The notes under the pieces were generated by a model. It was given only the letters and a program-made list of their open reading frames with translations, was not told where the DNA came from and did not search any database. From an uncultured Selenomonadaceae bacterium (GTDB taxonomy: Bacteria; Bacillota; Negativicutes; Selenomonadales; Selenomonadaceae), in assembly GCA_905234195.1 (NCBI GenBank), contig CAJOFR010000002.1, forward strand, positions 1 through 64,000: a stretch of 64,000 nt of DNA, in the 5' to 3' direction. Below are positions 51,072 through 64,000 of the stretch, in pieces. The translations under genes and the position numbers were made by a program. Positions within the stretch are counted from its first letter, which is position 1. Each line of letters starts with the position of its first letter.

Positions 51072-51096
51072 CCGTCATTTATTTAAAAAAATTTTT

Positions 51097-51125
51097 TTGC
51101 AATTATCGACGCCATTTAATATAAT
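51097..51125 (+). promoter_or_regulatory. Promoter of the glycan/acyl operon
   Basis: TTGCAA (51097-51102) and a perfect TATAAT (51120-51125) are 17 bp apart, 27 bases before the ketosynthase ATG. It is divergent from the aspS promoter. Confidence 0.8.
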
Positions 51126-51152: not shown

Positions 51153-52169
51153 ATGTTTGCAAAAATCAGGGCGGTGTCTTCGTACCTGCCGGAAATTATT
51201 GAGAGTAACGAAAAAATTATCGACGAGCGTTCAATAAAAAAAATCGGCGTCATAAATCGTCATATCGCCGCGAAAAATGAATCAGCGGGAGATTTGGCGA
51301 TAAGGGCGGCGGAAAATCTTTTCAGCGACTACGAAATCAATCGTGACGAAACGGATTTTATTTTGCTCTGCAATCAGCACCCCGATTATCAAATGCCGCA
51401 CACCGCCGTTTTGGTTCAAGATAAACTCGGTCTTGCTCAATCTGTCGGCACGATGGATATCGGGCTGGGCTGTTCGGGTTATATTTACGGCTTGGCGACG
51501 GCGAAAGGCTTAATCGAAACGGGGCTTGCCAAAAAAATTTTGTTCATTACTTCCAGCATCTACACGAAATATATCAACCCGAAAGACACTTCAACGCGCC
51601 CGCTTTTCGGCGACGGCGCAACCGCCACTTGGATTGAAGGAGTTGACGACGAAAAAGAAAATCTGCGCGCCTTTGTTTTCGGCTCGGACGGCTCCAGGTT
51701 CGACAAACTTTACATTCCCGCCGGCGGCAGCCGCAACGACCCGCGCAACACCCCCGAAATTTTTTCCGTCGACGATAACGGCAACTATCATTCCAATTAC
51801 GAATTTTATATGGACGGCACGGCGATAGCTTATTTCACTTTGCACGTCGTCCCCCGCCTCGTCGATGAAGTCCTTGACGCCGCGAATATCTCCCGCGAAA
51901 ATCTTGACTACTGCATTTTTCACCAGGCGAACAAACTTTTGATGGATTACGTCCAAAAAAAATCCGCGCTCGAAAATATTCCCTACTTCAACGACGTGCA
52001 ACATACCGGCAACCTTGCTTCGGGCAGCGTCCCCCGCGCGATTGAACAAGTTATAAATTCCGTCGACACTTCCAATTTGAAAAATGTTTTGCTGGCGGGA
52101 TTCGGCGTCGGCTTGAGTTGGGCGGGATGCCTCGCGGATTTGTCCGGCGTCCTCAAAAAAAGGAGGTGA
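51153..52169 (+). CDS. FabH-like 3-oxoacyl-ACP synthase III
   Basis: A 338-residue thiolase-fold ketosynthase. Cys107 (GLGCSGYIYGLA), His257 (FHQANK) and Asn287 (HTGNLASGS) form the KAS III triad. Such enzymes condense an acyl-CoA with malonyl-ACP, or in secondary pathways transfer acyl groups. It lies alone at the head of a glycosyltransferase operon with no other fatty-acid genes, so a role in making an acyl or branched group for a surface glycan is more likely than bulk lipid synthesis; this is inference. AAGGAG precedes the ATG, and the next gene's ribosome site overlaps its stop. Confidence 0.85.
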   Translation: MFAKIRAVSSYLPEIIESNEKIIDERSIKKIGVINRHIAAKNESAGDLAIRAAENLFSDYEINRDETDFILLCNQHPDYQMPHTAVLVQDKLGLAQSVGTMDIGLGCSGYIYGLATAKGLIETGLAKKILFITSSIYTKYINPKDTSTRPLFGDGATATWIEGVDDEKENLRAFVFGSDGSRFDKLYIPAGGSRNDPRNTPEIFSVDDNGNYHSNYEFYMDGTAIAYFTLHVVPRLVDEVLDAANISRENLDYCIFHQANKLLMDYVQKKSALENIPYFNDVQHTGNLASGSVPRAIEQVINSVDTSNLKNVLLAGFGVGLSWAGCLADLSGVLKKRR

Positions 52170-52173
52170 AGTC

Positions 52174-55100
52174 ATGCCGAAAAATAAATCTTCCGCGCCA
52201 AAAATCAGCGTCATTTTGTCGAGCTACAACCACGAAAATTATATCGCGCAGGCAATTCAGAGCGTCCTTGACCAAACTTTTTCGGACTTCGAGCTTTTGA
52301 TTTACGACGACGGCTCAAAAGACAACAGCCGCGAAATTATAAAAAGTTTCGACGACCCGCGCATAAAAACTTTTCTCTACAAGGAAAATCACGGACCGCG
52401 CATTGCCGCGCAGGAGGCACTCGACGCCGCGCGGGGAAAATATATCGCGATTCATCATTCCGACGACGTCTGGAAACCGGATAAACTTGAAAAGCAATTT
52501 AATTTTTTGGAGACACACCGAGAATATGTTGCTTGTTTCAGTTACGCGGATTTCGTTGACGAGGAAGGAAATTTGCGGGAGCTGGACGACGGCGATTTCT
52601 ACAAAAAAATTTTTGAGCAACCGAATCGTTCGCGCGCGGAGTGGCTGAGATATTTTTTCCATAACGCGAATTGTCTTTGTCATCCAAGCGTTTTGATTCA
52701 GCGTCGCGCTTATTTTGATTATGATTTGCTTGACATAACCGGGCTTTGGCAACTGCCGGACTTGTCGACGTGGATTAATCTTTGTTTTCACGCAGATTTT
52801 TACATCATGCCTGAAAAACTTGTCGACTTTCGTTTAAGGCGCGAGAGCCGCGAAAATATGTCGGCGTCGAATTTAGATAAAAGGATTCGTGTCGAAACGG
52901 AAATGTTTTTTATTTTGAGCAAGTTCGTTGAAAAATTTCGCAATGACAAATTTTTTCTTGAAGTCTTCCCCGAAGCCGAAAAGTTTATCGTCAAGGGGAA
53001 AATTGTTCGCGAGTTTGCTTTTGCGCAGATCTGCCTTGAAAATTCGTCGACTGCTTTTCCGAGTGCGATGCATTTGGTGGGAATAAATCTCTTGAAAAAA
53101 ATTCTTTCGGACAAAAATAAATCCGACAAGATAAAAAAATTTTATGGCTACGACGAAAAATCTTTCCTTGTCGATACGGGCAAGCGCGATATTTTTGGGT
53201 TGCGGCAAAAACTTTCGACGATACACGCGATAATTTACGCGGACACCGGCGGCGGGTTCAACGAGACTGAAAAAATCGACCGGTTTGTTTTGGTTGAGCC
53301 TTCGGGGAAATTTTTCGCGAAGTACAATTATATTTCGGACAAGCCCGTTAAATTTTTGCGCTTCGATCCCGCTGAAAATTTTGTTTCGATTAAATTGGAC
53401 AGTTTCAAAATTAACGGGCGGCACTACGAAAATCCCGCCGGAAATTTTTTTGAGATAAAGAATGATTTTTACAGGTTCATGACTCCCGACCCGCAACTTG
53501 TTTTTGAAATGGACGCGGAGGCAGGCGCGGCGAAAAATTTTGTGGTAGAAATTCTAGGCACGATTGATTTAAATTATGTTTTTATTCTCGAAGAGGAAAT
53601 TTCAAAATTTATTCGGGATAACGCGGCGGCGAAAGATAAAATTTCCGAGCTACAAGAAATAAACTCCGCGCAGGAGAAAAATATTTCCGAACTACGAGAA
53701 ATAAATTCCGCGCAGGAGAAAAATATTTCCGAGCTACGAGAAATAAATTCCGCGCAGGAGAAAAATATCTCCGAACTTCAAGAAATAAATTCCGCGCAGG
53801 AGAAAAATATCTCCGAACTTCAAGAAATAAATTCCGCGCAGGAAAAAAATATTTCCGAACTCAAGCGGATTAATTCTGCGCACGAGGAAAAACTTGCCGA
53901 ACTTCAAGGAATGAATATTGCGAAGGAACAGATTATCGCCGAGCTTACGAGAACTAATCGGGAGCTGAATGATTTCAAGGAGGCGGTTTTAAATTCAAAT
54001 TCGTGGAAGGCGACCGAGCCGCTTAGGAATATCGGGCAGTGGGTTCGCGGCAACAAAAAGGATGAAATTCTTTCCGTCGCGAAAAGTTTTTACAAGGCAT
54101 TGCCCTTCGACGAGGAGACGAAAGTTTCGCTCAAAAATAAATTCTATAAAAATCTTGCGCCCTTCATAAAAAATACTTACCACTACAAAGTTTGGCAAAA
54201 CAGTTTAAATTCCACGACGCAAATTGAAAATTCATCGAAACTTTTTATCGGCGCAACCCGTTTTAAATTCGACGGCGAATATTTTAATCAGCCGGGCAAA
54301 ATTGCAATTCACGCGCACATTTTTTATCTTGACCTCACCGAAGAAATTGTGAACTATTTTTCAAACATGCCTTATAAATTCGACGCGCTGATTTCTGTCG
54401 TGGACGCCGCCGCCGAAGAAAAAATCCGGACGACCTTTGAAAAAATTGACAACGTCGAAAATTGTATCGTCCGAGTTGTTCCAAATCGCGGGCGGGACGT
54501 CGCGCCGTTCATTGTCGGTTTCGGAGACCTAATCGGAAATTATGATTTTATCGCGCACGTCCACTCAAAAAAATCTCTTTACACCGGCGCGGAGCAAAAA
54601 AATTGGCGGCAATATCTTTTCGACGCGCTGATTGGCAGCCCCGAAAGAGTTCGCAAAATTTTTAGGGCGTTCGCGGATAACGAAAAGGTCGGCTTGATTT
54701 ATCCGACGCCGCCGGAAAATGTTCCCTACCAGGCTTTTACGTGGCTATCGAATCAGCAAATCGGCGGCTATCTTCTGAATCGACTGGACGTCCCGCCGAA
54801 CAAGACGGATTATTTTGATTTTCCTGCGGGCACGATGTTTTGGGCGCGAACTTCCGCGCTGAAAAAATTTTTGCAGACCGGCTTTACCTTTGAAGATTTT
54901 CCTGCCGAAAGCGGGCAGAACGACGGCACACTTGCCCACGCCTTCGAGCGCGCGGTTTCTCTGACGGTGAACGCGGAGGGCATGGATTTTTACGAGTTCA
55001 GTCCGGCTGACGAAACCTACACCGTGAATATCGGCGGCAAAAATCTTTGGCAATATTGGTCGGCTCGTCGCGAATCCGACATAAACTGGATTATCGAACG

Positions 55101-56904
55101 CTGGGAAATTATTTCCTTCGACATTTTCGACACGCTGATTATGCGCTACGTTGCCAAGCCAAATTTGGTGAATGACCTTATCGCGATAAAAGTTGAGGAG
55201 CTTTTGGGCAGGAAGTTCGATTTCAAAAAAATTCGCTTGCAGGCTGAAAACAACGCGCGCGAAAAAAAATCCGGCGACGTTAATTTTGATGAGATTTACG
55301 AAAGTTTTGCGGCGTTGACGAATTTTGACGAGGAGACCTGCAAAAATATTCGTGAGCTTGAAATTTCCGTCGAACTCGGTTTAATTTTGCCGCGCGAAAA
55401 AATTGTTGCCTGGCTGAATCGCGCGGTTGCCTCCGGAAAAAAAGTTTGGCTTATTTCCGATATGTACCTGCAGAAAAATTATCTCGAAAGGCTGCTGAAA
55501 AGATGCGGCGTCGTCGGCTACGAAAAGCTGATGATTTCTTGCGAAACAGGCATGCGAAAAGATACGGCGGCGGTGTGGAATTATCTTGTGGAAAAAAATT
55601 TTGTCGGCAAGCTGATTCATATCGGCGACAACGAGACGAGCGATTATCAAAAGCCAATGGACAGAAAATTTGATTCGTATCACGTCATGAGTTCGATAAA
55701 TCTTTTTTCACAAACACTTTTCGGGCGAATCGCGCTGGGCTGGTTCGGTCACGACATGAGCACCTACGCGGGAATTTTTCTGGGAATTATTTTGGCGAAA
55801 AAGTTTAACGATCCTTTCCTGCTGAAAAATCGCGGCGACGGCGGCGGAAAATTTCAGATTAAAACTTTTCGCGAACTCGGCTATATTTTTTACGGGACGC
55901 CGCTTTTGACTTTCATGCTTTGGCTGATAAAAAAATCGAAGGCTGACGGAATCAAACGCATTTTATTTTTGGCGCGCGACGGATATTTTTTGCAACCGCT
56001 TTACAAACTCGTGACAAAACTTTTGAAAATCGAGGAGCTACCCAATAATTATTTTTACGCTTCGCGCAGGGCGGTGACTGTTGCTTCAATCCGCGAAATT
56101 TCTCACGCCGAAGAGCTTTTGAAATTAATTTTTATAGGTACGACGAAAAAATTTTTCGACGTTCGATTTGACCTTGAGCTTGGCGACGATACGGAAATTC
56201 ATTTGCCGGAGGAGCCGAGTACAAAAATTATGAAGAAGATTATGGACGAGCACGAAGGCGAAATTTTGGAGCGCGCCGCGCTTGAAAGGAGGCACTACGA
56301 AAAATATTTAGCCGGTCTCGGAAATAATTTCGATAACGTCGGCGTGGTTGATATGGGTTATGCGGGGACGATTCAGTTTTATTTGCAGCGGCTGCTCGGC
56401 AAAAATTTGACGGGCTATTATTTCGCGACGAATGTCAACAATCGTTTTGGGGTTTCCGCCGCCGAACGCATGCGCGGCTGTTTCACGGAGAACGACGACT
56501 ACGGGCTGACGACTTCCGCGATTTACAAATACCACCTTTTGTTTGAGTCCATCCTCACTGCGCCCGACGCGCAGCTGAAATTTTTTGACGAGGAGGGCAA
56601 TCCGATTTTCGGGAATCCGGAGCCGGCGCAGTTTCAAATTGGGGACATACGCGAAGTGCACGAGGGGATAAGTGCTTTTTGTCGAGACGTACTTGAGATT
56701 TTCGGCGAATATATTTTGAAAATACCAATCGATTTTGATTTTGTTGATAAGTGGGTCCGTTCGTTCGTGGACGACGAAGAAATTATCGCGCCGGAAGTAA
56801 AAAATATTTTCAATTTCGACGACGAGTACTGCAACACTTTTACCGGCAACGCTTTCGATTTGTACCTGCACGGGCTGAACGGCATAAACTTCAAGCTAAA
56901 ATGA
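52174..56904 (+). CDS. 1576-residue GT2/coiled-coil/RgpF/HAD fusion protein
   Basis: A giant cytoplasmic protein. A GT2 glycosyltransferase (about 9-230) begins ISVILSSYNHENYIAQAI and has DDGS and HHSDDVWKPDK. After a linker, eight 14-residue coiled-coil repeats follow (490-601). An RgpF-like rhamnan-synthesis domain (about 705-930) carries PNRGRDVAPF and HVHSKKS. A HAD-type domain (about 977-1190) carries SFDIFDTLI, SDMYL and GDNETSD. The COG5610-like end (about 1225-1480) carries RILFLARDGYFLQPL. This suggests several steps of one surface polysaccharide on one chain, with the repeats as a spacer. AAGGAGGTGA lies 4 bases before the ATG. The exact sugars are unknown. Confidence 0.85.
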   Translation: MPKNKSSAPKISVILSSYNHENYIAQAIQSVLDQTFSDFELLIYDDGSKDNSREIIKSFDDPRIKTFLYKENHGPRIAAQEALDAARGKYIAIHHSDDVWKPDKLEKQFNFLETHREYVACFSYADFVDEEGNLRELDDGDFYKKIFEQPNRSRAEWLRYFFHNANCLCHPSVLIQRRAYFDYDLLDITGLWQLPDLSTWINLCFHADFYIMPEKLVDFRLRRESRENMSASNLDKRIRVETEMFFILSKFVEKFRNDKFFLEVFPEAEKFIVKGKIVREFAFAQICLENSSTAFPSAMHLVGINLLKKILSDKNKSDKIKKFYGYDEKSFLVDTGKRDIFGLRQKLSTIHAIIYADTGGGFNETEKIDRFVLVEPSGKFFAKYNYISDKPVKFLRFDPAENFVSIKLDSFKINGRHYENPAGNFFEIKNDFYRFMTPDPQLVFEMDAEAGAAKNFVVEILGTIDLNYVFILEEEISKFIRDNAAAKDKISELQEINSAQEKNISELREINSAQEKNISELREINSAQEKNISELQEINSAQEKNISELQEINSAQEKNISELKRINSAHEEKLAELQGMNIAKEQIIAELTRTNRELNDFKEAVLNSNSWKATEPLRNIGQWVRGNKKDEILSVAKSFYKALPFDEETKVSLKNKFYKNLAPFIKNTYHYKVWQNSLNSTTQIENSSKLFIGATRFKFDGEYFNQPGKIAIHAHIFYLDLTEEIVNYFSNMPYKFDALISVVDAAAEEKIRTTFEKIDNVENCIVRVVPNRGRDVAPFIVGFGDLIGNYDFIAHVHSKKSLYTGAEQKNWRQYLFDALIGSPERVRKIFRAFADNEKVGLIYPTPPENVPYQAFTWLSNQQIGGYLLNRLDVPPNKTDYFDFPAGTMFWARTSALKKFLQTGFTFEDFPAESGQNDGTLAHAFERAVSLTVNAEGMDFYEFSPADETYTVNIGGKNLWQYWSARRESDINWIIERWEIISFDIFDTLIMRYVAKPNLVNDLIAIKVEELLGRKFDFKKIRLQAENNAREKKSGDVNFDEIYESFAALTNFDEETCKNIRELEISVELGLILPREKIVAWLNRAVASGKKVWLISDMYLQKNYLERLLKRCGVVGYEKLMISCETGMRKDTAAVWNYLVEKNFVGKLIHIGDNETSDYQKPMDRKFDSYHVMSSINLFSQTLFGRIALGWFGHDMSTYAGIFLGIILAKKFNDPFLLKNRGDGGGKFQIKTFRELGYIFYGTPLLTFMLWLIKKSKADGIKRILFLARDGYFLQPLYKLVTKLLKIEELPNNYFYASRRAVTVASIREISHAEELLKLIFIGTTKKFFDVRFDLELGDDTEIHLPEEPSTKIMKKIMDEHEGEILERAALERRHYEKYLAGLGNNFDNVGVVDMGYAGTIQFYLQRLLGKNLTGYYFATNVNNRFGVSAAERMRGCFTENDDYGLTTSAIYKYHLLFESILTAPDAQLKFFDEEGNPIFGNPEPAQFQIGDIREVHEGISAFCRDVLEIFGEYILKIPIDFDFVDKWVRSFVDDEEIIAPEVKNIFNFDDEYCNTFTGNAFDLYLHGLNGINFKLK
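53641..53976 (+). repeat. In-frame 42-bp tandem repeat
   Basis: Eight 42-bp units encode ISELREINSAQEKN-type 14-mers. Five are near identical (units 4 and 5, and 2 and 3, differ by one base each) and three are progressively degenerate. Gain or loss of units keeps the frame and changes only the coiled-coil length. Confidence 0.9.
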
Positions 56905-57929
56905 TAAAAGATTTTTATTTTGCGAGACGTGCCGGAGATTTTTTGGCGATTAATTTTCCGAAGGCTTACGATTTTATTCACCGAACAATTCACGGAATAA
57001 CCTACGAGGATCGCGGCGAATTTTTTCTCGTCAAAATGCGCGACGGCACCAAAACTTTGAGGCTCAAGGAAAATTTTGACTTCGCGTTAAAACTTCCCCT
57101 CGACTTCGCGTCGAAAATTTTTAATCCGAAAGTTGCCGCCGTCATTCATATTTTTTATCCGGAGCTGGCGGAAGAAATTAAAACCTTTTTGAAAAATATT
57201 CCTTGCAAAGTTGACGTCTTTATTTCGACGGTCAATGAAGATAAAAAAATTTCGCTGGAAAAAATTTTTCGCGACTTCGACAAAGGCAACGTCGTCATAA
57301 AAATTTTTGAAAATCGCGGCAGGGACATTGCGCCGGCGTTCGTCGGGTTCAGGGAAATTTATCAGAATTACGAGCTTTGTCTGCATATTCATTCTAAAAA
57401 ATCTCCGCACGCGACGGGCAGACTCTTCGGCTGGCGGGAATTTCTTTATCGAAATTTGATTGGCAACCCCGAAATTATCAGCGGAATTTTTCAAGTTATG
57501 TTGACGAGCGACGTAGGAATTTTATTCCCGCAACATTTTGCGCCTATTCGTCTTTCGATAAACTGGGGGGAAAATTTTTTGAGCGCGGAAAATTTTTTGG
57601 CGCGGCTCGGAATAAAAATTGACGGCGAAAAATTTCTTGATTTCCCCGCCGGCTCGATGTTTTGGTTTAAGCCGCAAGCACTTGCCCCCCTTTTTGAAAG
57701 CGACATTGCCTTTGAAGATTTTCCGCAGGAGCGCGGGCAGACCGACGGCACACTTGCGCACGCGCTCGAACGATCTTTTCTCTACATTGCCGAAGCCGCC
57801 GGGTTTTCGTGGATAAAAGTTGCCGTCGACGAAAAAAAAATCGGCGATGCTCCTCTGCTGAAGTCTTCAAACGAAAAGGAGCTTGCCGAAAATCTGAAAA
57901 AGTTTTTTAAACGAACATGTCAGGAGTGA
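56901..57929 (+). CDS. RgpF-like rhamnan synthesis protein
   Basis: A 342-residue protein with the same domain as the third part of the upstream fusion: VAAVIHIFYPELAEEI, FENRGRDIAPAFVGF, HIHSKKSPHATG, DFPAGSMFWFKPQAL and EDFPQERGQTDGTLAHALER. RgpF-family proteins help build or modify rhamnose-glucose cell-wall polysaccharides in streptococci. An N-terminal 60 residues (FYFARRAGDFLAINFPKAYDF) is unassigned. The ATG overlaps the upstream stop (ATGA), and the longer open frame upstream is a shadow. A run of nine A near the 3' end could slip. Confidence 0.82.
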   Translation: MIKDFYFARRAGDFLAINFPKAYDFIHRTIHGITYEDRGEFFLVKMRDGTKTLRLKENFDFALKLPLDFASKIFNPKVAAVIHIFYPELAEEIKTFLKNIPCKVDVFISTVNEDKKISLEKIFRDFDKGNVVIKIFENRGRDIAPAFVGFREIYQNYELCLHIHSKKSPHATGRLFGWREFLYRNLIGNPEIISGIFQVMLTSDVGILFPQHFAPIRLSINWGENFLSAENFLARLGIKIDGEKFLDFPAGSMFWFKPQALAPLFESDIAFEDFPQERGQTDGTLAHALERSFLYIAEAAGFSWIKVAVDEKKIGDAPLLKSSNEKELAENLKKFFKRTCQE

Positions 57930-57935
57930 TTTTTG

Positions 57936-58577
57936 ATGAAACATTTAATTTTTACAGCTACAATTATTTTGGCGATGCTTTTCGCGAATTTTGCATCCGC
58001 CGCGCAAATTAGTCAAGCGTATTATCGTGGCGACAAAGATTTAATTTATCCGGTTGTCACTACCGAAAATAAAAAAGTTTCCAAAAAAATCAACGCCGAA
58101 ATTTTTAAGGAAGTCGACCGCTACGTCAAAAGTATGGAAAGGCAGGCTAAGGAGAACGGTCACAAAATCGCGGGGCTTGGGATAAATTTTGAGACGCCTT
58201 GCAACGAGGAAGGCGGAATTTTGAGCGTTGTCTTGACTGAATATATTTTTATCGAGATGGCGGCGCATCCTTCCACATTTAAACGCACGTTCAATTTTAA
58301 TTCTGATTCCGGCGCAAAACTTTCCGTCGACAGCTTGAGCGAAATTGCGCGTGTGGAAAATGGCGAGTCCGCTTATTCGCCGAGAAATGTTTCGCGCAAA
58401 TTGAGAGACTACGCCGAGAAAAATAATTTATTCCTGTTTGATAAAAATATTGAGCTGAAAAAAGTCCCCGACGATTTTTATTTCGACGAAAATTTGCACG
58501 TGCATTTTATTTTTCAGCAATACGAAGTTGCGCCGTACGCGGTGGGGATTATCGACCTTGACGCCGACGCGGAATAA
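57936..58577 (+). CDS. Exported DUF3298-type protein
   Basis: A 213-residue protein with a signal peptide (MKHLIFTATIILAMLFANF, cut near ASAA). The C-terminal DUF3298-like domain has FNFNSDSGAKLSVDSL, then VPDDFYFDENLHVHFIF and YEVAPYAVGI. The domain also forms the extracellular part of the anti-sigma factor RsiV, where it binds lysozyme; isolated exported copies are of unknown function. It may sense or bind a wall component. ATG 57936 has AGGAG 9 bases upstream. It is translated with the glycan operon, 6 bases after the RgpF-like stop. Confidence 0.78.
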   Translation: MKHLIFTATIILAMLFANFASAAQISQAYYRGDKDLIYPVVTTENKKVSKKINAEIFKEVDRYVKSMERQAKENGHKIAGLGINFETPCNEEGGILSVVLTEYIFIEMAAHPSTFKRTFNFNSDSGAKLSVDSLSEIARVENGESAYSPRNVSRKLRDYAEKNNLFLFDKNIELKKVPDDFYFDENLHVHFIFQQYEVAPYAVGIIDLDADAE

Positions 58578-58600
58578 TTTTACAAAGGGAGTTGAGTAAT

Positions 58601-60427
58601 TTGGAACTTCAGGCAGAAGAGAAAAGAATTTTGGAGCAAGTTTACGGGCACCAAATCGCGAACTCAATCGGCTACAATCCGAATCAAATTAAGGAAGTTC
58701 GTGAGCTGACGACGGACGAGACGAAATTTTTCGACAGGACGGCACTAATCGCGCCGAATTTTGCCGTGCAGACGCTTTACAAAGTCAAGGGCAATATCAC
58801 GCCGCTGATTTTTAATCGCGTCGTTCGCAACATGATTAAGGAGGACGAAAATTTTCGCGCGAATTATTGCAACGTCGGCAAGCGCACGGTCAAAGTTATT
58901 CTTGTCAATCGAAAAAATCCGCCGGAGATTGTTTATCGCAACCTCAATCAGCTTTACGGGGAAGAGCTGGACGAAATGCTGACAAAAATCATGGAGGCGG
59001 ACAGGCGCGTTGATTTCGATATAAAGCTGGGAAATTTGATACGTTTTGCGGTTTTTCGGACGGGCGAAAATGAAAACGCAGTGCTCGTGACAATATCGCA
59101 GCTGCTTGTAAATTTCTTCGACAGCAAAAATTTTTTTAGGGCGGTTTTGGAAAATACACCTTACAAAAAAATCGAAATACCGCAAACAAATTTATCCATG
59201 CCGCAAGTTGAAGGACCTGCCCGCGAATATTGGGCGAACTTCCTGCAAAATTTGCCGCCGCCGTCGATTATTCCCTACTCAAAAAAATTTTCCGGCATCT
59301 ACAAAGAAAAAATTTATCGCCTGAAAATTTCCGCCGATATTTTTTCGGACTTGCGCGCGCGTGCTCAATCGAACAAGGCGATGCTTATGACGATTCTGCA
59401 GAGCGCGTGGGGATTTTTCTTGCAGGTGACGAATCATTCAAGCGAAGTCATGTTTTGTCAGCTGACGTCCAACGCGAAATCTGCAATGAATCTTAGCGTT
59501 ATTCCCGTGCGGATGAAAATTTCCGGAGAACTCACCGTCGAAAAAATTATAAATCAGCAATTTCGGCAGCTTGTAGTTTCGCAACCGTACAGCTTTTTTG
59601 ATTGGAACAACTTAGACAATTTGCCTTTGGGCAGGGAAAAAATTTTCGATCACTTTTTAAATTTCCTCGACTTCCGGACAAATCAAGAGACTTATTCTGA
59701 AGAGTTTGCCGAGCCGGATGGAAAGTTTGTCACGAGAAATTCTTGGGGCATGCACGGAATGAAATTGGGCGTGCATTTTCAGTACACTCAATCGAATTTA
59801 TCGGTGACTTTTATTTATGACGAGAATCAGTTCAGTTTTAATGCGGGCGAAAATCTTGCGCGGACTTACGGTTTGATTTTGAAACAAATGCTGGTTTATT
59901 GGCACGCGCCCTTCAAAAATTTTGCCGAGCATCTTCAAGAGCAAATCGCCGCCGACAAAGAGAGCACCGAAAAAATTGCGCGCGACACGAAAAATAAAAT
60001 TATCATTGATTTTATTTCAAGGAACAGTATTTTGCATGACGAAGGCACAGGCACGGTTTATCTGTATGCCGAAAATTCGGATCTTGTCACTTGTTTTGAA
60101 GGCGACAGAATTTACGGCGACATTCTTGAAGAAAATTTGGTCTTCGTCGTCGAGGGCAAGCTGGCGAGAAATGTGGACACCGGCGACGGCTGGTTCAATG
60201 CGCTTGATATAATTTCGGCGGGCGGCTGGATTAACGAGACTGTTTTTTTGCAGGAACGCCGCTTGAAAATTTCCGCAGAAGTTTTGACGGAAAAGGCAAC
60301 GCTGATGTTGATACCGTTCACGAGAATGGAAAATATTTTGCGCGGACACCCGGAAATCGCAAAACCAATTTTGAAACACATTCTGCGGCAAATGGAAAAA
60401 TATCAAATGCTTTGGTTGCAAAGCTGA
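58601..60427 (+). CDS. Condensation-domain-like protein with cNMP-binding-like end
   Basis: A 608-residue protein. The first about 440 residues resemble an NRPS condensation fold: an N-lobe (LYKVKGNITPLIFNRVVRN), RVDFDIKLGNLIRFAVFR before the active-site strand, and a C-lobe (YWANFLQNLPPPS, MTILQSAWGFFLQV). Where HHxxxDG should be, the sequence reads SQLLVNFFDSK, so both His are missing. The last about 150 residues (GDRIYGDILEENLVFVVEG, GGWINETVF, RMENILRGHPEIAKP) resemble a Crp-type cyclic-nucleotide-binding domain. It may be a regulated scaffold or atypical acyltransferase for the operon; this is hypothesis. TTG 58601 follows AAGGGAG by 9 bases. Confidence 0.65.
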   Translation: MELQAEEKRILEQVYGHQIANSIGYNPNQIKEVRELTTDETKFFDRTALIAPNFAVQTLYKVKGNITPLIFNRVVRNMIKEDENFRANYCNVGKRTVKVILVNRKNPPEIVYRNLNQLYGEELDEMLTKIMEADRRVDFDIKLGNLIRFAVFRTGENENAVLVTISQLLVNFFDSKNFFRAVLENTPYKKIEIPQTNLSMPQVEGPAREYWANFLQNLPPPSIIPYSKKFSGIYKEKIYRLKISADIFSDLRARAQSNKAMLMTILQSAWGFFLQVTNHSSEVMFCQLTSNAKSAMNLSVIPVRMKISGELTVEKIINQQFRQLVVSQPYSFFDWNNLDNLPLGREKIFDHFLNFLDFRTNQETYSEEFAEPDGKFVTRNSWGMHGMKLGVHFQYTQSNLSVTFIYDENQFSFNAGENLARTYGLILKQMLVYWHAPFKNFAEHLQEQIAADKESTEKIARDTKNKIIIDFISRNSILHDEGTGTVYLYAENSDLVTCFEGDRIYGDILEENLVFVVEGKLARNVDTGDGWFNALDIISAGGWINETVFLQERRLKISAEVLTEKATLMLIPFTRMENILRGHPEIAKPILKHILRQMEKYQMLWLQS

Positions 60428-60429
60428 CG

Positions 60430-60906
60430 TCACAAGTGAATTATCTCCATGCCGTCAAAAACTTCGGCGAACTTTTCCGCGACAAGCCGGCGTTGACAAA
60501 AATTCGCGCTCGGCTCCGCGCAGAGCAAACAGTAACGCACTTCAGGCGAATCGGAATAATTTTGCGTTATGTGCCGCACAATCCGCCGTTCGTTCATGTT
60601 CGTTTCAAAATCCTTGACGTAATCTTCCCAGTCGATTAGCCCCCGCTTATATAAATTCAAAGACTCTTCCGCCGGCGTGAACTTCAAGTCGTGCTTGTAC
60701 TCAATGGCGGAAATCCTCTTCAGAAAAAATTTTAAATCGGCGGACTTGGCGAAACCGGAAAGTTGCGTGTTGTTGTAAAGGCGCACGTCGATAACGTTCG
60801 TGATGTTGTGCAACTCCAGCAACTCAAAAAATTGTTCCGCGCTTTTTTTCGTGAATCCGATCGTGTAAATTTTTGCAGCTGTCGGATTTTTTTTCGCCTT
60901 AGACAT
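60430..60906 (-). CDS. DUF488 family protein
   Basis: A 158-residue protein of DUF488: KIYTIGFTKKSAEQFFELL, a VIDVRLYNNTQLSGFAK strand-loop, and a Cys-containing CLLCAEPSANFCQRRLVAE near the end, where most members have CHR. The function is unknown. Its stop lies only 2 bases from the stop of the convergent operon gene, with no room for a terminator. GGAGG plus TTTAAA precedes the ATG. It follows rsgA by 21 bases and is probably the last gene of that operon. Confidence 0.82.
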   Translation of the reverse strand: MSKAKKNPTAAKIYTIGFTKKSAEQFFELLELHNITNVIDVRLYNNTQLSGFAKSADLKFFLKRISAIEYKHDLKFTPAEESLNLYKRGLIDWEDYVKDFETNMNERRIVRHITQNYSDSPEVRYCLLCAEPSANFCQRRLVAEKFAEVFDGMEIIHL

Positions 60907-60927
60907 TTTAAACCTCCACGCAAAATT

Positions 60928-61797
60928 TTAATCGGTCGACAATTCTTTCAGCAGTGCAAGATAAATTTCGTAGCGTTCGCGTAAAATTTCCCCGCGCTCG
61001 ACGGCGGCTTTGACTCCGCAATTCGGCTCGTGGCTGTGGCTGCAACCGTTCAGGAATTTACAAGTCGTCGCAAAATTTTTAAACTCCTTGAAACAGTGGC
61101 GCAAAACTTTTTCGTCTATTCCGCATTCCTTCAAATCAACCGCGCTAAAGCCGGGCGTATCGACGACAAAGCCGCCGCCAATTTTAATCAGTTCAGAAAT
61201 TCTCGTCGTGTGTTTGCCGCGCAAAATTTTTTCGCTGACTTCGCCGACCTTCAAACTCAACGAAGGCTCAATCGAATTTAAAAGGGAAGACTTCCCGACG
61301 CCCGAAGGTCCCGCAAAAACTGTGACGCCGCCAGAAATAATTTCCTTGAGATTTTCGACGCCCTCCCCCGTCCGCGCGGAAGTCCGAATAATTTTGTAGA
61401 GCGGCTCATAACTTTTCAAAAAATTTTCTCCGTCCGCGATAAGGTCGATTTTATTCAGGCAAATAATAATCTCGTCAACCTTCGACCACTCCGCCTGCGC
61501 GATAAATCTGTTCAAAAGCAGCGGGTGCAAATCGGGCTGGGCGGCGGCGAAAGTCAAAATCACTCTGTCGACGTTGGCAACGGCAGGACGATTCAAAAGA
61601 CTGCGGCGCGGCAAAATTTTTTCGATAACGCCGGAGCCGTCCTTCAGCCGCGAAATTTCCACGAAGTCACCTGGAAAAACCGCACTGCCGATTTTTTTAT
61701 CGCGCTTGATAATCCCGCGCAACTTGCAGGGAATCAGCTCGCCGGCAACCTCCACGAAAAAAAAGCTGTTGTAAAATTTAATAACTCTTCCCGTCAT
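60928..61797 (-). CDS. rsgA: Ribosome small-subunit GTPase RsgA
   Basis: A 289-residue circularly permuted GTPase that assists late 30S assembly. An OB fold comes first, then the G motifs in permuted order: LNKIDL (G4), GPSGVGKSS (G1) and DTPGF (G3). A zinc domain follows with CGIDEKVLRHC...C...CSHSHEPNCGV. It lies 9 bases after the prkC stop, in the common Firmicutes order stp-prkC-rsgA. The usual followers rpe and thiN are absent. Confidence 0.96.
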   Translation of the reverse strand: MTGRVIKFYNSFFFVEVAGELIPCKLRGIIKRDKKIGSAVFPGDFVEISRLKDGSGVIEKILPRRSLLNRPAVANVDRVILTFAAAQPDLHPLLLNRFIAQAEWSKVDEIIICLNKIDLIADGENFLKSYEPLYKIIRTSARTGEGVENLKEIISGGVTVFAGPSGVGKSSLLNSIEPSLSLKVGEVSEKILRGKHTTRISELIKIGGGFVVDTPGFSAVDLKECGIDEKVLRHCFKEFKNFATTCKFLNGCSHSHEPNCGVKAAVERGEILRERYEIYLALLKELSTD

Positions 61798-61806
61798 AAA
61801 AATTTC

Positions 61807-63564
61807 TCACTGACTTTTGACACTGCTGTTTTCGCGCGAAGGCACATTGACTTCGACGGCGGGGGACTCGGCAGGCGCGGAAAGATTTTCACTGCCGGAA
61901 TTATTCTGCGCGGAATTTTCCGGCTCGTCGAAGGTAATGACTTCGTCGGCGGGCGCAAACTCTTCGTGTTGCTGGGTGGAAGTGTTCGGCGTGCTGTTGG
62001 AGTTATAATTTTCGGCGCGGTAACTGCGATTATTTTCGACGGGCGTGGGTTCGTCGTAATAAGGCGCGCTGTTCTCGTTGCTCCTCGCGATAGTTTTTGC
62101 CTGCCCGCGCGAAACAATCAGGTCAACGGACTGCCCGCGATTAATTTTCGTGCCGGTCGTCGGATCCTGCGAAAGGACAGTGCCCGGCTCTGAATCAGAA
62201 TCCTTTTCATAAACGGATCCGAGTTGCAGACTCAATTTTTGAATGCGTTCGGTGGCGGCGGATTTATTCAAGCCGACAAGGTCAGGCATATCGATTGTTT
62301 CGCCGCCCTTGCTCACGTAAATTGTAACCAGCCTGTCGCTTTTGACATTCCTGCCGGAAATCGGATCTTGCGAAACGACTTCGCCGGCGGGGACATTCGC
62401 GTCATAAGTTTCAGCGACATTGACGCGCAGTTTTCCGTCCTCCAAAATTTGACGGGCAAGGGCAAGTTGTTTGCCGGTGACATCGGGCACGGGTACTTCA
62501 TTGCCGCCGTCGACGACATTCCCGAACGCCATAAAAATCCCCACGCCAAACCCCATGCACAAAACAAAAGCCATTGCCGCAAAAAAGGTCTTCGTCGTGA
62601 AGAAAGATTTTTTCGCGGGCGCGTCGTTCGTCTTCGATTTTGAATTGGCGGCGGCGTTTTGTCTGACAGTTCTGCGCGGCGGCAGGTTCGCGACCTGGAC
62701 GCGCGGCAAAACTTGTGTGGCTTCGGGATCGTTTTCCGCGTCGACCTTCAGAGCTGCCTCGACGTTCGTCAAAGCTTGAATCATTTCAAAACTTGTCGGG
62801 CGGGTCTCCGGATTTTTGCTCATCGCCTTTAAAATTATCGCCTCAAGCATCGGCGGAATCTGAATACGAAATTGACTGGGTGGCGTCGGCTCCTCGTTGA
62901 CGTGTTTCAGCGCAATCGCAACGGCATTATCTCCGGTGAAGGGCAAACGATTCGTCAGCATCTCGTACATGACAACGCCGAGAGAATAGACGTCAGACTT
63001 TGGGGTAATCGCGCCGCCCTCCGCCTGCTCCGGCGAAAGATAATGGACAGAGCCGACGACGTTGCCGCTGTAAGTCATAGTCGATTCGGTGACGGCGCGT
63101 GCAATTCCAAAATCGGCAATCTTCGCGCGCCCGTCGCTCGTCATCAAAATATTATGCGGCTTTATATCGCAGTGCACCAGATTATTTGCGTGGGCATGCG
63201 CCAGCCCGTTGGCAATGTCTTTGGCGATAGAAACCGCCTCCGAAATTTTCAGCGAACCTTCTTCGCGAATTTTATTCTTCAGCGAACTGCCGCGAACGTA
63301 CTCCATAACGATATAATGGTCGTCGCCGTCTGCACCGACGTCATAAATATTAACGATATTCGGATGTGCAAGGCGGGCGGCGGCTTTTGCTTCGCGGTGA
63401 AATCTTTCGATAAACTCGGCGTCAGCGCGATAGGCTTCGTGCAAAATTTTCACGGCAACAAGACGATCAAGCAGGGCGTCGTGAGCTTTGTAGACTTCCG
63501 CCATGCCGCCGCTGCCGATTTTTTCTTGAATCTCGTACCTTTCGCCCAAAACTCTTTCTATCAT
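61807..63564 (-). CDS. prkC: PASTA-domain Ser/Thr protein kinase
   Basis: A 585-residue membrane kinase. The kinase domain (1-270) has the Gly loop (GSGGMAEVYKA), Lys in VAVKIL, HCDIKPHNIL and ADFGIA. A juxtamembrane Ser/Thr/Arg linker and one membrane helix (about 328-348) follow. Only two PASTA repeats (PVPDVTGKQLALARQ and DMPDLVGLNKSAATE) are visible, then an Asn/Ser/Glu-rich tail of about 100 residues. It senses wall fragments and phosphorylates cell-division and wall targets. PrkC of Bacillus has three PASTA domains, so this is a shorter form. GGAGGTG precedes the ATG. Confidence 0.95.
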   Translation of the reverse strand: MIERVLGERYEIQEKIGSGGMAEVYKAHDALLDRLVAVKILHEAYRADAEFIERFHREAKAAARLAHPNIVNIYDVGADGDDHYIVMEYVRGSSLKNKIREEGSLKISEAVSIAKDIANGLAHAHANNLVHCDIKPHNILMTSDGRAKIADFGIARAVTESTMTYSGNVVGSVHYLSPEQAEGGAITPKSDVYSLGVVMYEMLTNRLPFTGDNAVAIALKHVNEEPTPPSQFRIQIPPMLEAIILKAMSKNPETRPTSFEMIQALTNVEAALKVDAENDPEATQVLPRVQVANLPPRRTVRQNAAANSKSKTNDAPAKKSFFTTKTFFAAMAFVLCMGFGVGIFMAFGNVVDGGNEVPVPDVTGKQLALARQILEDGKLRVNVAETYDANVPAGEVVSQDPISGRNVKSDRLVTIYVSKGGETIDMPDLVGLNKSAATERIQKLSLQLGSVYEKDSDSEPGTVLSQDPTTGTKINRGQSVDLIVSRGQAKTIARSNENSAPYYDEPTPVENNRSYRAENYNSNSTPNTSTQQHEEFAPADEVITFDEPENSAQNNSGSENLSAPAESPAVEVNVPSRENSSVKSQ

Positions 63565-63582
63565 AAATCACCACCTCCGCTT

Positions 63583-64000
63583 TCAAACCTTGACGACGAT
63601 AACGGTAATGTTGTCGTGCCCGCCGTTATCCAGCGCGGCTTTAACGAGACTTTCGGCGGGATTTTCGCTTGAAATCAAAATTTCGGCGATTGTTTCATCT
63701 TCAACCATATTGGTCAAGCCGTCAGTGCAGAGCAAAAAAATATCGCCGTCGTTCAGCGGAAAATTATCGGCGTCGATAGAAATATCGTCAATGGCTCCGA
63801 CAGCCTGAGTCAAAATATTTTTCAGCGGGTGGACGCGCGCTTCGGCGGGGGTGAGTTCACCGAGACGGACTAGGGTTTCAACGTAGGAATGGTCCTCCGT
63901 CATTTGCGTGAAAAAATCTCCACGCAAAAGATAAATCCTGCTGTCACCGACGTGCGCAAAATAAGCTTGCCCCTTGTAAAAATGGAGGAGGGTCGCGGTT
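63583..64000 (-). CDS. PP2C-type Ser/Thr phosphatase (Stp/PrpC), partial
   Basis: The C-terminal about 138 residues of a PPM/PP2C phosphatase; the start lies beyond the window. AHVGDSRIYLLR, EDHSYVETLVRLGELT and LCTDGLTNMVED carry the metal-binding Asp residues, and GGHDNITVIVV is the family end. It reverses phosphorylation by the adjacent PrkC kinase, whose gene starts 18 bases downstream. Order and spacing are standard for Firmicutes. Confidence 0.95.
   Translation of the reverse strand, partial: TATLLHFYKGQAYFAHVGDSRIYLLRGDFFTQMTEDHSYVETLVRLGELTPAEARVHPLKNILTQAVGAIDDISIDADNFPLNDGDIFLLCTDGLTNMVEDETIAEILISSENPAESLVKAALDNGGHDNITVIVVKV

Follow-up and report, generated by a model that had tools for sequence, protein, structure and literature searches.

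Analyses of a 64,000-nucleotide (nt) stretch (the window) from the 2.09-Mb, 47-contig assembly of an uncultured Selenomonadaceae bacterium (genome G000) identified a row of five genes, P1 to P5 (Table 1), which we interpret with moderate confidence as a two-module, lineage-specific transcription unit. In this unit a glycan module (P1 to P4) would be followed by an unrelated regulatory gene, P5, placed under the glycan promoter, and the row would probably build a ribose-containing, acyl-decorated surface sugar chain in a gut-type bacterium. The P1-P2 and P1-P4 combinations are conserved sub-units; the row as a whole is ordinary, and two of its parts, P2 and P5, are the interesting feature. Domain assignments, catalytic positions kept or lost, conserved gene pairs and a link to STAS genes in relatives ground this interpretation in the sequence. 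With P2, a testable chemistry, the use of phosphoribosyl pyrophosphate (PRPP) as the source of ribofuranose, is assigned to a large glycosyltransferase fusion that is common in the genus. P5 represents a protein family in which a seemingly inactive peptide-synthetase fold is combined with one that resembles a sensor, and this family tracks with partner-switch genes.

Conservation of the row within the genus

The survey of the genus covered 66 genomes in assemblies of 20 to 460 contigs each, with P1 homologues taken at E < 1e-60. P1 homologues were identified in 52 genomes and P5 homologues in 56, with both present in 44. The two genes lay within 30 kb of one another in only one of these 44, the window genome itself. 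In G058, G103 and G150 they shared a contig at distances of about 31 to 72 kb, and in the other 40 they were on different contigs, some links possibly being hidden because the assemblies are so divided. The co-occurrence of all five families, by which the first-pass annotation of this DNA had proposed to check its five-gene operon, was thus not found, and a conserved five-gene system was rejected as the genus-wide search recovered the full row from this genome only. The possibility that G637 carries an identical row interrupted by the end of a contig gained no support, with 110 bases between the end of P4 and the contig end and no P5 start within them; P5 of G637 follows a truncated duplicate of its own 5' portion, and the gap between the G637 contigs may be longer.

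Smaller combinations were conserved. The neighborhoods of 37 of the 54 P1 places in the genus, the window's included, were examined, and 24 of them had P2 or part of it no more than 0.41 kb after P1 (20 with the RgpF part; two of the 24 were cut by contig ends and two matched P2 in part only). P4 followed P1 at four of the 36 loci other than the window's, and a DegT gene lay upstream of P1 at 16 of the 37. Neither a separate P3 nor a same-strand P5 was found downstream of P1 in the other 36 stretches, of which those at L164, L262, L263 and L279 say little because they end within 0.7 kb past P1.

The four closest relatives of P5 (in G136, G637, G646 and G149) have a DUF488 gene 3' of P5 with one gene in between, and in three of them a divergent SPFH gene lies upstream, the fourth being cut by a contig end. 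DUF488 was not tagged in the P5 stretches of the next closest relatives that were read, G643, G633, G634, G649, G636, G092, G098 and G070. In the window, the glycan genes occupy the place of the SPFH gene while DUF488 is retained on the 3' side, and based on this arrangement the row seems to be two loci that have been joined.

The order and the tight or overlapping spacing described for the five genes by the first-pass annotation were borne out by the open reading frames (ORFs), which all lie on the + strand between 51153 and 60427 with gaps of 4 bases (P1/P2), -4 (P2/P3), 3 (P3/P4; 6 with the ATG start) and 14 (P4/P5). Because the spacing is so tight, it suggests that P1 to P5 form one transcription unit, and it is no proof of a conserved system. 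A rearrangement could instead have placed the glycan genes upstream of P5 with no functional consequence of their closeness. Consistent with such an event, the joint row is present in one of 66 genus genomes, and P5 shares the neighboring DUF488 with its four closest relatives but lacks the SPFH gene that three of them have upstream. We nevertheless consider functionless proximity somewhat unlikely, as the 14-bp gap and good ribosome-binding site ahead of P5 suggest co-expression and the remaining four genes are packed equally tightly.

The glycan genes and the P2 fusion

Pfam analyses of P2 identified a GT2 domain (3.3e-32) and an RgpF domain (5.1e-54; 184.2 bits, cut-off 25), and those of P3 a second RgpF domain (1.7e-51; 175.9 bits, PF05045 cut-off 25), with both RgpF matches covering only positions 268-502 of the 503 in the PF05045 profile. 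Over the last 597 residues of the window P2, Pfam gave nothing below E 0.12. A profile of the C-termini of P2 and 13 relatives (n = 14), however, matched Bcs3, the capsule polymerase of Haemophilus influenzae type b (CroT-CrpP-CriT), at 1.2e-22 and the PDB entry 7shg, ‘Ribofuranosyl transferase’, at 6.2e-21. The Pfam model for HAD hydrolases matched 10 of the 14 aligned C-termini, the window's not among them, and the match of the transferase domain to Bcs3 stops near residue 1430.

The catalytic positions of Bcs3 were matched in P2. Residues D983 and K1129 of P2 align with D386 (the HAD nucleophile) and K548 (the motif III Lys) of Bcs3, and D1269, R1298 and D1393 align with the PRPP-site positions D680, R708 and E818, the last with a Glu to Asp exchange; all were invariant in the 14 sequences. 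These matches were counted along the printed alignment, with a one-residue offset between the chain and the published numbering, and the residue roles are those given in an excerpt of PMC10299916. Together, these data indicated that the C-terminus of P2 is a HAD phosphatase joined to a PRPP-dependent ribofuranosyltransferase of the Bcs3 type, whose activity is predicted. Among 18 P2-like proteins, these 14 have the transferase's RDG motif. The other four fusions (L154, L158, L162 and L179), which were kept out of the profile, lack the motif and count against a general assignment, so that not every member of the P2 family would carry out the ribofuranose step. P2 had been described as a four-part fusion; its GT2 and RgpF parts were found, but the division of the C-terminus into two enzymes brings the number of parts to at least five.

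As in Bcs3, P2 has a HAD phosphatase followed by a PRPP ribofuranosyltransferase on one polypeptide with another glycosyltransferase-type domain. The same HAD-then-transferase order occurs in Cj1432 of Campylobacter (GT4-HAD-PRT), with activity demonstrated according to an excerpt of PMC12096443. P2 differs from these two proteins in that GT2, the presumed coiled coil and RgpF make up its N-terminal part in place of CroT or GT4, and in having no SH3 domain by Pfam.

The presumed coiled coil of P2 was judged by eye from a 42-bp repeat whose 6.8 copies had 88% matches. The length of this segment ranged from 50 to 171 residues in 23 fusions, with that of the window P2 the longest. Coiled coils set chain length as rulers in O-antigen systems that depend on ABC transporters, as described in an excerpt of PMC11231755, and a variable-length coiled coil between catalytic modules is, in the excerpted accounts, also a feature of WbdD, WbbB and O7 ORF6 of Klebsiella and Escherichia coli O-antigens. 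By analogy, the presumed P2 coiled coil resembles a chain-length ruler and may act as one, although P2, unlike those proteins, has no methyltransferase or kinase domain by Pfam. At L260 (G633) and L144 (G092), the loci of the closest P1 relatives, the gene after the KAS III gene matches P2 in part only (704 and 423 bits, respectively) and has no RgpF-type match.

Pfam also confirmed the remaining families named for this module in the first-pass annotation. P1 matched ACP_syn_III (8.8e-23) and ACP_syn_III_C (6.7e-18), has the KAS III triad by motif (Cys107/His257/Asn287), and had 3gwa as its best PDB match (2.8e-74). P4 matched DUF3298 (2.4e-8; 35.2 bits, PF11738 cut-off 24.1), scored slightly under the cut-off for PdaC (28.3 versus 29.1 bits), and has an N-terminus that appeared signal-like by eye. 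Among 151 sampled genomes of the family, matches to P3 were found in 30, a number that counts in the RgpF parts of P2-like fusions, and matches to P4 in 58.

The genes near distant P1 relatives encode short-chain dehydrogenases/reductases (SDR), DegT aminotransferases, a small protein (71-86 residues) and, once, an acyltransferase-3. The small protein is the size of an acyl carrier protein (ACP), but the one scanned had no Pfam match, and the ACP label is our own reading. Based on these neighbors, the likely product of P1 is the acyl substituent of an amino sugar. The same neighbors, and the retention of the Cys-His-Asn triad, make the acylation proposed by the first-pass annotation plausible, although P5 is without the catalytic His of its fold and, as a point against this reading, ACP, SDR, DegT and acyltransferase genes are all missing among the five in the window. 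None of the titles listed by searches of the open-licence PubMed Central (PMC) literature fitted 3-hydroxybutyryl decoration of O-antigens by a KAS III enzyme.

We propose that P1 and P2, with P3 and P4, would constitute a surface-glycan module in which P2 is a multi-enzyme chain builder. The GT2 and RgpF domains would add sugars, the C-terminal domain would move ribofuranose-5-phosphate from PRPP, and the HAD domain would strip the 5-phosphate so that the chain could grow, with the coiled coil spacing the domains, as molecular rulers do for glycans that depend on ABC transporters. P3 would contribute one further sugar and P4 would be an exported envelope protein. P1 may make a short 3-ketoacyl chain with which enzymes encoded elsewhere would acylate either the glycan or an amino sugar. 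The assembly of a polysaccharide, as first suggested for this row, is thus supported and can be made more specific through the GT2, coiled-coil, RgpF and PRPP ribofuranosyltransferase assignments; the product is presumed to be a surface glycan.

P5, a condensation-like protein with a sensor-like end

P5 had been described as a degenerate condensation-like protein with a nucleotide-sensor-like end, and Pfam confirmed the first of these domains with a match to Condensation (1.8e-22) and gave a match to cNMP_binding that fell below the cut-off (9.9e-4; 19.5 bits, cut-off 27.5). A profile of 38 P5 sequences matched the condensation domains of nonribosomal peptide synthetases (NRPSs), including those for bacitracin, tyrocidine and surfactin, over their full length at residues 23-442 of P5 (E 1e-38 for bacitracin synthase 3), and matched Crp-type proteins weakly over residues 468-600. 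NRPS condensation enzymes have an HHxxxDG motif in which the second His is catalytic. In the window P5 this place reads SQLLVNF, and in the column of the catalytic His only two of 61 aligned members have His, with Gln in 45. The condensation domain of P5 is therefore probably enzymatically dead. P5 also differs from NRPS condensation domains in standing alone with an added sensor-like domain, and no carrier or adenylation protein is found among the five genes.

Glu and Arg are the canonical ribose and phosphate contacts in cNMP pockets. In the P5 family they are poorly kept (Glu549 in 31 and Arg556 in 32 of 61 members), so that the second-messenger control suggested by the first-pass annotation found no support, and relatives pointed to partner switching instead. 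The same numbers bear on whether the five genes form a single pathway of glycan assembly, in which P1 and P5 jointly acylate the product and the P5 tail senses a second messenger. Such a pathway would accord with the tight spacing on one strand, with the acyl-chain chemistry common to the KAS III and condensation folds, and with the ACP-sized, SDR and, once, acyltransferase-3 genes beside P1 relatives. Given the scarcity of the catalytic His, the poorly kept sensor contacts and the near absence of P1-P5 proximity in the genus, we believe it to be improbable.

It might also be argued that P5 is a working acyl- or peptidyl-transferase that acts through another residue, e.g., His354, which is present in 57 of 61 members with a gap in three of the remaining four. 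One of the two relatives that have the catalytic His (L222:6284-10066) keeps PHxxxDG and has as neighbors a PP-binding protein, a phosphopantetheinyl transferase and a 2064-residue protein that matches the P5 profile; its His and DG in this setting suggest that the P5 family descends from a working enzyme. However, the usual catalytic position is Gln in most members, a carrier protein was found only at L222 among 30 chosen neighbor proteins scanned with Pfam, and the STAS and RsbW neighbors described below are regulatory. We give little credence to a P5 that is still an enzyme.

The evidence for a regulatory role came from the neighbors of P5 in other genera, where STAS genes were counted with Pfam models. 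Of 52 such genomes with P5, 33, covering 10 genera, had a STAS gene no farther than 4 kb from it, versus about 1.1 expected. As the first 25 genomes had been picked partly with their neighborhoods already known, the remaining 27 were counted separately, giving 17 of 25 (0.48 expected) and 16 of 27 (0.62 expected); G001, one of the 16, rests on a 59-residue fragment of P5. The P values of these counts overstate independence because the genomes are related. In at least 11 of the first 25, HATPase_c_2 (RsbW) was also within 4 kb. At 18 of 58 P5 loci an Rsb-type gene was found no more than 4 kb away on the P5 strand, whereas two of 60 control stretches had one anywhere, a count that leans toward a link because its models were built from the same loci. 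The rows of P5 relatives carry SpoIIE phosphatase, HATPase and STAS genes, as does the RsbU/RsbV/RsbW switch.

Several observations weigh against this interpretation. STAS genes were not linked to P5 in 19 of the 52 genomes, Rsb-type genes were near P5 at only two of 25 loci in the window's genus, and an AlphaFold model of P5 made from two sequences had a predicted local distance difference test (pLDDT) score of 31, i.e., no usable fold. No STAS, HATPase or SpoIIE gene is adjacent to P5 in the window, and the STAS and HATPase matches of its genome sit on other contigs. Nor is P5 a sigma factor. Our best guess, held at somewhat under even confidence, is that P5 acts in a partner switch, either through binding or as its output; a sensor of unspecified kind would come next and an enzyme last.

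We thus picture P5 as a condensation domain that no longer catalyses, fused to a sensor fold of the Crp type. It would act in binding or regulation, in many relatives as part of an RsbU/V/W-like switch, and would here have come under the glycan promoter. More tentatively, we speculate that P5 is the founder of a family in which a peptide-bond-forming NRPS condensation domain ceased to be catalytic, acquired a Crp-type sensor and turned into a component or output of an RsbU/V/W switch, with its output wired in the window to a glycan operon whose coiled-coil ruler is encoded by a slippage-prone 42-bp repeat. If this speculation is correct, an NRPS fold would have been reused for signalling, which is unexpected, and both the production and the chain length of the glycan could be tunable.

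P5 matches were found in 76 of the 151 sampled family genomes and were mostly full length. In a 299-genome sample of the phylum, full-length P5 was present in only three genomes, all of the same family and the window's own counted, and elsewhere in that sample the tail alone matched Crp-sized proteins. Outside the family, the full architecture occurred in three of 250 genomes of the class (G442, G452 and G544). The window P5 is 59% identical to a match in an uncultured Selenomonadaceae assembly. No paper listed by searches of the open-licence PMC literature had an inactive condensation and sensor protein of this kind in its title or abstract opening.

Variants of P5 were also observed. A short form of about 369 residues (L223:6912-8018, also L224 and L225) has an N-terminal condensation part followed by the cNMP domain, which in the distant relative at L223 exceeds the Pfam cut-off. 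Paired copies of P5 lie side by side at L036, L048 and L221, and a stop-terminated partial copy of the P5 5' end (L269:1-168) is located directly upstream of P5.

Signals and neighboring genes in the window

The single promoter that the first-pass annotation placed ahead of the row corresponds to a promoter-like site directly upstream of P1 (Table 1), which is a consensus match only. There were 28 such matches in the scanned stretch versus 15.0 expected in shuffles, and terminator-like sites in the region were fewer than expected (13 versus 24.5). An alternative TTG start of P5 at 58601, after AAAGGGAG, is equally good as that at 58592.

Table 1. Features of the P1-P5 row and its flanks in the window.
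Feature	Position	Strand	Basis or remark
Divergent promoter-like site	51071-51043		Faces gene on other side; consensus match only
Promoter-like site TTTGCA-18-TATAAT	51096..51125	+	Directly ahead of row; consensus match only
P1, KAS III-like ketosynthase	51153..52169	+	ORF, Pfam, PDB match
P2, fusion GT2-coiled coil-RgpF-HAD phosphatase-PRPP ribofuranosyltransferase (predicted), 1576 aa	52174..56904	+	ORF, Pfam, profile
GT2 domain of P2 (aa 12-168)	52207..52677	+	Pfam
42-bp in-frame tandem repeat, 6.8 copies, presumed coiled coil of P2	53634..53916	+	Repeat; coil by eye
RgpF domain of P2 (aa 706-936)	54289..54981	+	Pfam
CrpP-like HAD phosphatase domain of P2 (about aa 980-1175)	55111..55698	+	Profile alignment
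CriT-like PRPP ribofuranosyltransferase domain of P2 (about aa 1176-1576)	55699..56901	+	Profile alignment
P3, RgpF-like glycosyltransferase, 342 aa from ATG	56901..57929	+	ORF, Pfam
P4, DUF3298/PdaC-like protein	57936..58577 (alternative start TTG 57933)	+	ORF, Pfam
P5, pseudo-condensation and degenerate cNMP-binding-like domain	58592..60427	+	ORF, Pfam, profile
Condensation-like domain of P5 (about aa 23-442)	58658..59917	+	Profile
cNMP-binding-like domain of P5 (about aa 468-600)	59993..60391	+	Pfam, profile
DUF488 gene	60430..60906	-	Convergent, 2 bp past P5

The DUF488 gene belongs to a minus-strand row (60430-63999) that is convergent with P5 and also includes an RsgA GTPase, a PASTA protein kinase and a gene truncated at the end of the window. 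The product of this last gene weakly matches a SpoIIE-type phosphatase.

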